IMG/VR virus record: IMGVR_UViG_3300004097_000068
Coordinates: 1 to 21,668 of that record
Length of the DNA stretch: 21,668 nucleotides
Origin: a virus
Direction: 5' to 3' (one strand)
Below are positions 11,976 through 19,512 of this stretch, in pieces. Position 1 is the first letter of the stretch. Every line of letters starts with the position of its first letter. Both the position numbers and the translations under genes were made by a program. The notes under the pieces are model-generated. The model was not told where the DNA came from. It ran no database searches and saw only the letters and a list, made by a program, of their open reading frames with translations.

Positions 11976-12147
11976 GCCTGCTTTTATCTGTTTTTATTGA
12001 ACCTAAGACCTCTAACGGCGAACCGTGAATTTCCACCTTTGCCTTAAATGACCCACCCGACTTGTTGAGGGTGAAAGAGCCATTAAGGCCCGACCGCATC
12101 CACTGTTCGATTTTCTCAAGCAGTAACTTGTGGCTCTTATTGCTCAT
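11962..12147 (-). CDS. Hypothetical 61-residue protein
   Basis: A small protein (MSNKSHKLLLEKIEQWMRSG, then NGSFTLNKSGGSFKAKVEIHG) with an N-terminal amphipathic helix and a C-terminal beta hairpin pattern. I do not recognise it. Its ATG overlaps the stop of the RusA-like gene as ATGA (12147-12144), so it is the last member of the HNH/RusA cassette. The structural promoter begins within its 3' end. Confidence 0.6.
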   Translation of the reverse strand: MSNKSHKLLLEKIEQWMRSGLNGSFTLNKSGGSFKAKVEIHGSPLEVLGSIKTDKSRLDIA

Positions 12148-12542
12148 TTCAACCCCGCAATCGTCAGCACTAAGCGTGGAAGCTTAACGTCAACGTCAAA
12201 GTCATGTTCGAAACCTTCGATCTCTTTCCATCCATCATTTTTAATAATGCCGATTTTAACCAGAGAGTCTTGAACGAATTTTTGGCCGTAGGCGATATTG
12301 TCTTTATCCTCGCGGCGAGAAGCTCGATACCACATATAATAAAGCCTGACGCTCTTAAACTTGCCTATGCCCTGACTGAGCATTTCCCCCATAAGATTTG
12401 CTTCGACTTCGCGCTTGAGCTTCGACGCAAGTATAGCACCGATCTTGCGGGTTCGCTCGACCTTAATGTATTCGTTGAGCGTGGGTATATAACTGCGCAA
12501 GGTGATATGCTTGAGGGAATGACCGAACTTGTCTATACCCAT
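12144..12542 (-). CDS. RusA-like Holliday junction resolvase
   Basis: A 132-residue protein with the RusA pattern: an IPTLNEYIKVERTRK stretch near residues 19-33 (the substrate-binding N-terminal region), acidic residues in REDKDNIAYGQKFVQDSLVKIG (D79, D81, K88, D92) and a following IIKNDGWKEIEG with D103. RusA enzymes are dimeric, Mg-dependent nucleases that cut four-way junctions and resolve branched DNA; in phages they help clear DNA before packaging. The D-x-D-N and downstream K...D spacing is that of the family, although the N-terminal half diverges from E. coli RusA. It lies 4 bp behind the HNH gene in the same small cassette between the terminase and portal genes. Confidence 0.72.
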   Translation of the reverse strand: MGIDKFGHSLKHITLRSYIPTLNEYIKVERTRKIGAILASKLKREVEANLMGEMLSQGIGKFKSVRLYYMWYRASRREDKDNIAYGQKFVQDSLVKIGIIKNDGWKEIEGFEHDFDVDVKLPRLVLTIAGLK

Positions 12543-12546
12543 GACC

Positions 12547-12948
12547 CTACTCTTTTCGATGCTTCTCTTTGTGGCATGGCACGCATAAAAAATCTACCTC
12601 AAGTTGCTTTGCGTAATCTTCGTGATGCGCCTCAAGACGGCCTCTATTGCCACATCGACACGAAGAGGGGCGAATGAGTGTGCCGTGAATTAAGGCCTGT
12701 GCTACGGCATAATGGGCTGCATACTTTTCTTTATTATTTTCGCGATACTTTCGATTATGGCGCTTGCGAGCCTCGTTGCTTTGAGGATTTTCCTTTATGT
12801 ATTCGCGCTGTTTCGCATTAAGCTTCTCTCTATTCTTGGCCCTATACTGCGCCACCTTCGCTAATCTCTTTGCCCTCTGCTCTGGCGTTTGCTTCCGGTA
12901 ATACTCCCGCATGTAATCCGCGCGCAGTTTCTTTTTCTCGTCCGACAT
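12547..12948 (-). CDS. HNH endonuclease
   Basis: A 133-residue protein. The first ~80 residues are very rich in Lys/Arg/Glu/Tyr (repeated YRKQ, YRAKNREK, YREN motifs) and probably helical and DNA-binding. The last 40 contain the HNH-like zinc site: C97-R-C99, RLEAHHEDY (H108, H109), FLCVPCHKEKH (C122, C125, H126, H130). This E/V-A-H-H-x-D-Y form is common in small phage HNH nucleases. Proximity to the terminase genes allows a role in DNA cutting for packaging, as for HK97 gp74, but it could also be a free-standing homing-type nuclease. A strong AAAGGAGG lies 8 bases before the ATG. Confidence 0.85.
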   Translation of the reverse strand: MSDEKKKLRADYMREYYRKQTPEQRAKRLAKVAQYRAKNREKLNAKQREYIKENPQSNEARKRHNRKYRENNKEKYAAHYAVAQALIHGTLIRPSSCRCGNRGRLEAHHEDYAKQLEVDFLCVPCHKEKHRKE

Positions 12949-15533: not shown

Positions 15534-16235
15534 TTACTTTACGGCCACCCAAGCCGCGAAATTCATCCAACGCCAGAAGCAATCAACTCTAAAGCCGACG
15601 CGGCGCAACATATGCTCATTGTGGCTCGCCGAAAATGGGTTCATAGCAAACTTGAGCGACTCGCTTTTCGCCTTAATCTCCTTATCGCTATACCCGTTTC
15701 CCTTTTTCATGCGGTGGTATCGATCCACCATCATCTTGTCGATATTGAACGTATCGCCCAAGACCTTTTCCACGACAATCAATGCGCCGCCAGCCGATAA
15801 AGACGAATAGGCCTGTTCAATAATCAATTCGCGCGTGATGGGCGCAAGGAATTGCAGGGTTAATACGGCCGTCATTAAAGTAGTGCCGCCGCCAAATCTC
15901 AGGCCGGTAGAAAGATCGTGTTCAAATATATGTACATTCGCATCGTGCTTAAACCGCTCTGTGGCGTGCTCTAACATCGGCTTAGAGTTTTCATACCCGA
16001 CGAACCTCGTATTGCCCTTAGCGTGCGGCAGAAGGCCAGCAATCGTATCTCCATGCGAACAGCCCAAGTCAACGACAACCGAATCGTGGCGCATAAAGAA
16101 GTTGCCCACATCTGAAACCAATTCGCGCATAACCCAATATTTCGGAATTGATCGCTCTAACATATCTTCAAAGCAGTCGGACACCGAAGCATCGAAGGCC
16201 CAATGCTCAGTAGGTTCATGGCCTAAACTCGTCAT
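15534..16235 (-). CDS. CmoA-like SAM-dependent enzyme (Cx-SAM synthase homologue)
   Basis: The start at ATG 16235 gives 233 residues and overlaps the DNA methyltransferase stop (ATGA); the longer open frame upstream is a shadow of that gene. The sequence aligns throughout with CmoA as I recall it: FDASVSDCFEDMLERSIPKY (14-33), VVDLGCSHGDT (SAM motif I, 54-64), LTLQFLAPITRELI, LSAGGALIVVEK, KGNGYSDKEIKAK, and RRVGFRVDCFWRWMNFAAW. CmoA converts SAM plus prephenate into carboxy-SAM, normally used by CmoB to modify tRNA wobble uridine. In an ungapped alignment the carboxylate-binding Arg199 of E. coli CmoA is Ser191 here. It could be an altered Cx-SAM synthase, make another SAM analogue, or be a plain methyltransferase. 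Coupling to a DNA methyltransferase suggests a DNA modification role. Confidence 0.82.
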   Translation of the reverse strand: MTSLGHEPTEHWAFDASVSDCFEDMLERSIPKYWVMRELVSDVGNFFMRHDSVVVDLGCSHGDTIAGLLPHAKGNTRFVGYENSKPMLEHATERFKHDANVHIFEHDLSTGLRFGGGTTLMTAVLTLQFLAPITRELIIEQAYSSLSAGGALIVVEKVLGDTFNIDKMMVDRYHRMKKGNGYSDKEIKAKSESLKFAMNPFSASHNEHMLRRVGFRVDCFWRWMNFAAWVAVK

Positions 16236-17224
16236 CGTCTGCTTTCCTTTATCTCGTCTATGAGGGTTGCTATGGGCTGAGCGATGGCGCGCATCATCAA
16301 GGGGGGCACGGCGCGGCCTAAGCGTTCCCACTGCTGCGCGTAGGTGCCCGTCAATTGAAAATCGGCGGGGAACGAGCAGATAATTTTTAATTCTTCGATA
16401 GTGAATTTTCGGCGCTCGGTTTCGGTTTCAATCCAGCCGCCAGCAGAGAAGTAGGCGCTCTCTGGCTTATCGGCATCTGAGGCAAAGATTGTGGGCGAAG
16501 GGCGATCAGGGTGTCGCCATTTGTCGGGCATACCGCCCAAGCGTAGCCGCTTGACGTAGGGGAATATCTCTCGCACGGTATAGCGGTGCGGCATCGGCAG
16601 GGGAAAAACAGGATCGCGCTCAAGGTCACTGCGCACGCCGACGAATATTAAGCGCTCTCTGGCTTGAGGCACGCCCAGACGGTGAGCGCCCAGAAGTTTG
16701 ACCTTCACGTTATAGCCACAATCGCGCAACTTCTGCAATACCTGCTTAAAGTAGCCCTGCGAAGCGCCCTTCATCATGCCAGCCACATTTTCAGCGACGA
16801 AAACCCACGGTTGAAGCGAATCAACGAACCGGATATACTCTTCGAAAAGGTCATCGACGCGCTGAGTCTTATCCGAGTAGGATTTTTCCTTACCCCAGAG
16901 CTTTGCGCCTTTGCCTGATCCAGAGAAGGCGGCGCAGGGCGGCGAGCCGTCTAATAATTCAAGGTCGCCGACCTTAATGCCCGTAGCCTCTCTGATAAAT
17001 ATTTCTCGTATATCTCGCGCATCGACCAGCGTAGTCGGGTTGTTGAGTTGATAGACCTCCCGCGCGGCCGGAACAAACTCATTGGCCCAGAATACTTCAA
17101 AGCCAGCCATGCGATACCCCAAAGTTGAGCCGCCGCAACCTGAGAAGGTTGACATAGCTCTGTGCCGTGGGCGAATCGCGGCAATCTCTTCCATCGTCGG
17201 TATGATGTATTCTGGTTTATTCAT
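16232..17224 (-). CDS. C5-cytosine DNA methyltransferase with altered motif X
   Basis: A 330-residue protein with C5-methyltransferase motifs in order: I, STFSGCGGSTLGYRMAG (25-41); II, WANEF (46-50); IV, DGSPPCAAFS with nucleophile C97; VI, AENVAGM with E145; VIII, QARERLIFVGVR (187-198); IX, RPSPTI (241-246); X, RLGRAVPPLM (301-310). The usual Gln after the catalytic Pro-Cys is Ala. Motif X normally reads G-N-(A/S)-V; here Arg304 replaces that Asn, which lies beside the cofactor. The target-recognition region between motifs VIII and IX is short, about 40 residues, so recognition may be of a short site. It overlaps the upstream gene by 8 bases and the CmoA-like gene by 4. It probably protects phage DNA from restriction; the product may not be simple 5-methylcytosine. 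Confidence 0.93.
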   Translation of the reverse strand: MNKPEYIIPTMEEIAAIRPRHRAMSTFSGCGGSTLGYRMAGFEVFWANEFVPAAREVYQLNNPTTLVDARDIREIFIREATGIKVGDLELLDGSPPCAAFSGSGKGAKLWGKEKSYSDKTQRVDDLFEEYIRFVDSLQPWVFVAENVAGMMKGASQGYFKQVLQKLRDCGYNVKVKLLGAHRLGVPQARERLIFVGVRSDLERDPVFPLPMPHRYTVREIFPYVKRLRLGGMPDKWRHPDRPSPTIFASDADKPESAYFSAGGWIETETERRKFTIEELKIICSFPADFQLTGTYAQQWERLGRAVPPLMMRAIAQPIATLIDEIKESRR

Positions 17225-18942: not shown

Positions 18943-19512
18943 TTATATTACTATCTGTTCGTCGAGAAAGCTGGTAATGCCGGTAAAGACCGTCACGGCA
19001 TACGTGACCATCGCCGCTTTAGTCTCAAGCCATTCTCTATGCCTCGGATGATCCTTAAAGGCAATTTCAGTGATAACAGACGGGCACGAAGTCTGGTTGA
19101 GGAAGTAAAGCGATCGGTCGTAATCTGATTGAGGCCCATACGTGCAAGGCCAGTAGACGACCTCGTCCATTGCGCTGGTGATTCGTGAGGCGAGCAATTC
19201 ACCCTGCTCAGAGGTTCGGCCTTTTTCCTTATCGTCCCAATACAGATTGGTAGCATAATTGCCGCCGCCAGCGTTTAGATGTAATTCAACAGCCAATTGA
19301 CAGTCGCTACCATTGCACTGCGCCACCTTCGACTTCAGGGCCGCGTCATTGGTCATAGCATAGGTGTGACCCTGCGCCTGTATTACTGCGTGCCCTGCCC
19401 ATCGAAGCAAGTCAGATAGGCGATCTTGGGCAATACGGCACTTTTCCCACTCATACAGACGCTCGCCTTCTGTATTTGACGAATGCCCTGCCGCTATATA
19501 AATCTTAGCCAT
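18943..19512 (-). CDS. N-acetylmuramoyl-L-alanine amidase (endolysin)
   Basis: A 189-residue Amidase_3-type zinc enzyme: IYIAAGHSS with H10, an ERLYEWEKC helix carrying the probable zinc-binding Glu, VELHLNAG with H78, and VITEIAF with catalytic E149. It hydrolyses the bond between MurNAc and the stem peptide to lyse the host. There is no signal peptide, membrane span or wall-binding domain, so it should accumulate in the cytoplasm and need a holin to reach the wall. This compact form suits a Gram-negative host. It overlaps the 75-residue gene by 8 bases, downstream of a small membrane protein. Confidence 0.9.
   Translation of the reverse strand: MAKIYIAAGHSSNTEGERLYEWEKCRIAQDRLSDLLRWAGHAVIQAQGHTYAMTNDAALKSKVAQCNGSDCQLAVELHLNAGGGNYATNLYWDDKEKGRTSEQGELLASRITSAMDEVVYWPCTYGPQSDYDRSLYFLNQTSCPSVITEIAFKDHPRHREWLETKAAMVTYAVTVFTGITSFLDEQIVI

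Follow-up and report, generated by a model that had tools for sequence, protein, structure and literature searches.

The closest described counterpart of the locus analysed here was published in December 2025 for Synechococcus phage S-B43. In this DNA-modification system, CmoA makes carboxy-SAM (Cx-SAM) and CmoX, a methyltransferase homologue, forms 5-carboxymethylcytosine (5cxmC) by placing the carboxymethyl group on C5 of cytosine at GC sites (PMC12783734). The carboxymethylated base is then amidated with glycine by the ligase CmoY, and the glycine form was the sole form detected in S-B43 phage DNA (PMC12783734). In SpCmoX, for which a structure with Cx-SAM is available (8YF3), Arg350 replaces Asn304 of M.HhaI and contacts the carboxymethyl group, and Cx-SAM is the only cofactor that the wild-type enzyme accepts (PMC12783734). 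Restriction resistance has been shown for HhaI only, after treatment of the DNA with the S-B43 enzyme (PMC12783734). The idea that a CmoA and a cytosine transferase work jointly, which the earlier note had put forward for the present locus, is thus not new, and it gains support from this work, as the same pathway has been shown biochemically in S-B43 and the diagnostic Arg is found in the enzyme described below.

The window, meaning the whole stretch of DNA that was analysed, is a single linear contig of viral origin, 21,668 bases long and probably a fragment; the cultured relatives of its terminase and portal are all distant. Both the ORF list and the sequence confirm a gene pair on the minus strand, consisting of a homologue of the CmoX-type DNA cytosine C5-carboxymethyltransferases (17224-16232, 330 aa, ATG start; PF00145, 4.1e-51) and a phage-type CmoA, a probable carboxy-SAM synthase (16235-15534, 233 aa, ATG start; phrog_4752, 3.3e-62). 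The two genes share an ATGA stop/start overlap at 16235-16232 (minus strand), as the earlier note had claimed. The ORF list also holds a longer alternative with a GTG start at 16331 for the CmoA gene; we prefer the ATG at 16235, since the resulting N-terminus matches that of the relatives, since it is preceded by AAAGGAAAG (16250-16242, minus strand), a likely ribosome-binding site, and since the sibling contig L006 keeps the overlap. A four-base overlap is common and on its own proves little. That the pair is more than a chance neighbourhood is argued by its conserved adjacency and by purifying selection: the arrangement is kept in L006, whose two proteins are 97% and 84% identical to those of the window, and dN/dS is approximately 0.03 for the methyltransferase gene and 0.10 for the CmoA gene.

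The pair lies in a tight gene run in the order ParB-like gene, single-strand DNA-binding protein (SSB), 78-aa gene, methyltransferase, CmoA and 91-aa gene. The ParB-like gene (18518-17910, minus strand; family HMM 8.2e-19, phrog_498 1.7e-7) is of the kind that usually stands upstream of these methyltransferases, and no PF02195 (ParB_N) match was obtained for it or anywhere in the record. It is followed by the SSB gene (17947-17453, minus strand; PF00436, 2.4e-31) and by the 78-aa gene (17453-17217, minus strand), which overlaps the methyltransferase start by eight bases and gave no match in Pfam or NCBIfam, while the 91-aa gene (15533-15258) comes after CmoA. Downstream of the run, a 155-aa gene occupies the place of the small terminase subunit, accompanied by the large terminase. 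Elsewhere in the window (12144-12948 and 18943-19512), a RusA-like resolvase, an HNH endonuclease-like gene and an amidase endolysin represent ordinary phage genes. As in S-B43, homologous CmoA and C5-methyltransferase genes thus share one gene run that lacks CmoB; unlike S-B43, the window lacks a linked CmoY ligase, carries the ParB-like and SSB genes upstream, encodes a shorter methyltransferase (330 aa vs 372 aa for S-B43 CmoX) and has the order CmoX-CmoA instead of CmoA-CmoY-CmoX. Pseudomonas phage PaBG and Streptomyces phage TurkishDelight likewise combine a ParB-like gene, an Arg-type methyltransferase (Arg at the motif-X site) and CmoA in one run, but differ from the window in that an asparagine-synthase-like or glutamine-amidotransferase gene is also present.

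The window methyltransferase shares with S-B43 CmoX both the SPPC motif and the Arg at the site of the Cx-SAM carboxylate. Its catalytic motif IV (SPPC, 16945-16934, minus strand) contains the nucleophile Cys97, aligned with the SPPC/Cys98 of SpCmoX and Cys81 of M.HhaI, and its motif X (LGRAVPP) contains Arg304 (codon 16315-16313, minus strand), aligned with SpCmoX Arg350 and M.HhaI Asn304. Equivalents of all four Cx-SAM contacts considered (Phe25, Glu47, Phe48 and Asp69 of SpCmoX) are present in the alignment. Among PDB sequences, the CmoX entry 8YF3 is the top match (4.6e-57; next match 1.5e-22), and it is also the top fold match (3.7e-27) of the AF2 model (pLDDT 90.9), with a modest identity of 30% to SpCmoX in the fold alignment. 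The Pfam, PHROGs and NCBIfam labels for the pair say merely DNA methylase and CmoA/tRNA methyltransferase. In the engineered carboxymethyltransferase M.MpeI N374K, too, a basic residue stands in place of the active-site Asn and enables Cx-SAM use; this enzyme is, unlike that of the window, a laboratory mutant with Lys instead of Arg and a CG preference (PMC12783734). In every CmoX sequence comparison that we made, the window enzyme agreed with CmoX, and it is very probably a Cx-SAM-dependent enzyme predicted to form 5cxmC.

We read the pair as a module of the CmoA-CmoX kind with which the phage modifies its DNA to contain 5-carboxymethylcytosine, and we assign to this reading a probability of roughly 0.9. 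By analogy, we infer that the window proteins act as their S-B43 homologues do. CmoA would convert SAM and host prephenate into carboxy-SAM; the methyltransferase homologue would flip out the cytosine, Cys97 would attack C6, and the carboxymethyl group would be transferred to C5. Arg304 would hold the carboxylate of carboxy-SAM, so that this cofactor is selected over SAM, and the 5-carboxymethylcytosine thus formed in the phage DNA would probably protect it from restriction.

Since the earlier note had named rare adjacency of the homologues in other phages as an observation that would speak against the joint pathway, this comparison was run. Loci were fetched by the methyltransferase alone, with CmoA disregarded and with ordinary Dcm-type and ordinary SPPC queries as controls, and were tallied after removal of duplicate proteins, with CmoA counted as nearby if it lay within 6 kb. 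The joint pathway passed, as CmoA was found near 125 of the 128 distinct Arg-types and near none of the 91 methyltransferases with another residue. The Arg-type exceptions (L092, L147, L183, L194 and L355, some of which were removed as duplicates) lie at most 172 bases from a contig end, and in Erwinia phage 2910A, which stands outside the tally, CmoA is located elsewhere in the genome. A further, broader GFPC sample gave CmoA with 6/6 Arg-types, which overlap the earlier loci, and with 0/66 others. The Fisher p of 6.7e-59 for the association between Arg and CmoA is overstated, as the sequences are related and kinship is ignored. The tree yields five independent contrasts, none of them opposite; three lie on branches with good support (sign test p 0.25), and by themselves these contrasts are too few for significance. 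An Asn clade of 11 rows without CmoA is nested among the Arg-types (support 99). It looks like a reversal, with the direction being our reading of a tree for which no root was inferred; a query with the nested Asn-type enzyme returned two loci only. One enzyme with Leu at the motif-X site (L086) is without CmoA but is situated near a contig end. Contigs of Acidobacteriota MAGs (L238, L242, L243 and L244) also encode enzymes that are closely related to that of the window, have Asn at motif X and are not accompanied by CmoA; these are probably plain methyltransferases.

The change from Asn to Arg is also found in Dcm/HhaI-like methyltransferases that carry GFPC instead of SPPC (L034, L060, L063, L065, L012 and L161-L236), where motif X reads CGRT in place of GNSV. 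CmoA adjoins these GFPC Arg-types in 74 of the 76 fetched loci, and both exceptions are at contig ends. In the tree, they group with ordinary GFPC enzymes, and a branch with a support of 99 separates the SPPC group; a single grouping of all Arg-types was rejected (AU p 0.0016, for a quick tree and a group named from the trait). In one GFPC pair, CmoA is 43% identical to the window CmoA, whereas the methyltransferase has only about 33% identity to that of the window over the catalytic half. Taken as sequence relationships, these data suggest that the DNA-tagging half of the kit arose at least twice in phages. The published census required SPPC, and its text makes no mention of GFPC (PMC12783734); the GFPC lineage with the same Asn-to-Arg change and the loci free of a ligase are hence what goes beyond that study. 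In Staphylococcus phages (L249, L250 and L359-L362), the partner of CmoA is a GSPC methyltransferase in which Gly occupies the motif-X site, so that Arg is not the sole solution. One of these loci, L361, has the order CmoA, CmoY-like ligase, GFPC Arg-type methyltransferase and GSPC methyltransferase.

With regard to the end product, plain 5-carboxymethylcytosine may be the final base in the window and in its ligase-free relatives, as no ligase is linked to the pair. Neither an Asn_synthase (PF00733) match nor a ligase HMM match was obtained in the record, itself probably a fragment, and the sibling L006 has no Asn_synthase-type ligase gene. It could instead be imagined that 5cxmC is merely an intermediate, which is then joined to glycine, ammonia or another amine, either by a ligase encoded beyond the fragment or by an enzyme of the host. 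The incompleteness of the contig, the exclusive detection of the glycine form in S-B43 DNA and the presence of a CmoY-like gene near 57 of 129 SPPC Arg-types speak for such a further step; the absence of an Asn_synthase-type gene from the record and L006 speaks against it as far as this type of ligase is concerned. A CmoY-like gene is moreover missing from 23 of the 45 SPPC Arg-type loci that are flanked on each side by 3.5 kb or more of sequence, and it was found near 0/28 SPPC Asn-types and 0/83 GFPC Arg-types of that set; L361, the one GFPC Arg-type with a ligase, was found after this set. We therefore regard a role of 5cxmC as a mere intermediate as possible but rather doubtful. The cultured Moraxella phage Mcat8 is a further carrier of the pair without an adjacent CmoY-like gene. 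No other recurrent hypermodification gene was recognised near the ligase-free GFPC pairs, where the families, judged by eye, were those of recombination, HNH, resolvase, replication and terminase. A role of the ParB-like gene in the carboxymethyl chemistry was considered and is rejected: because the gene also stands beside 26 of the 28 SPPC Asn-types, which lack CmoA, it is an associate of the methyltransferase rather than of carboxymethylation. Overall, the view that there were at least two origins, one in the SPPC lineage including the window and S-B43 and one in the GFPC lineage, and that plain 5-carboxymethylcytosine is terminal and not a handle in many phages, including that of the window, has in our opinion a slightly better than even chance of being correct.

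A different explanation would be that the methyltransferase uses SAM to form ordinary 5-methylcytosine, with CmoA serving something else, for example the modification of wobble uridines in the host. Such a division of labour would fit the C5-methyltransferase fold as well as the role of bacterial CmoA in tRNA modification, and hosts bearing CmoB could use its product. We nevertheless consider it very improbable, given that Arg replaces Asn at motif X and CmoA tracks that residue, that Asn-type relatives in the same setting have no CmoA, and that wild-type SpCmoX takes Cx-SAM only. The record itself, in line with the earlier note, offers no CmoB-like gene, as TIGR00452 has no match in it.

The carboxymethylation reading also requires that the window CmoA produces Cx-SAM, which is probable from the sequence comparisons. 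The AF2 model (pLDDT 94.2) has 1IM8, 4GEK and 4IWN as its top fold matches. Against TIGR00740, the protein scores 155.8 bits (1.5e-45), under the curated cut-off of 193.3 bits, and the proven SpCmoA scores still lower (115.6 bits). Lys190 (codon 15668-15666, minus strand; E. coli Lys198) is invariant in the relatives. The neighbouring position, which in E. coli CmoA is the carboxylate contact Arg199, is Ser191 in the window protein (codon 15665-15663, minus strand). Because of the score below the cut-off and the replaced Arg199, we filed the protein as a phage-type rather than a bacterial CmoA. In the E. coli CmoA sequence used for the alignments, Arg199 agrees with the numbering of the paper. 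Compared with the E. coli CmoA-CmoB pathway to cmo5U in tRNA, the window thus shares the CmoA fold and the probable Cx-SAM product, but has no CmoB, a replaced Arg199 and, at the position of Gln231, Arg222 (codon 15572-15570, minus strand). Arg199 is often absent from phage CmoA, and the residue equivalent to E. coli position 231 is nearly always basic (220 of 235 proteins; 158 Arg and 62 Lys), so that a shift of the carboxylate contact to residue 231 in phage CmoA is possible. That the Ser at the Arg199 position instead marks an enzyme that produces, or merely binds, some other SAM analogue and hence leads to a different C5-alkyl cytosine is highly unlikely, since SpCmoA has Glu there and yet works at about tenfold the rate of the E. 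coli enzyme (PMC12783734), and since the basic residue at 231 could act as a substitute. In Alcaligenes phage Afa-NA1 (L247, 8001-8708) and Aeromonas phage HJ05 (L248, 2675-3376), CmoA is present and no C5-methyltransferase is annotated in the stretch shown.

For phages that modify their DNA, the present comparison provides independent support for a modification that is known from one phage. The residue at motif X predicts a nearby carboxy-SAM synthase, and sequence data can therefore be screened with it for carboxymethylated DNA. At loci free of a ligase, the effect of 5cxmC by itself could be observed, and the GFPC lineage, provided that its chemistry can be confirmed, would widen the reach of the modification and may supply DNA-labelling enzymes with other recognition sites.
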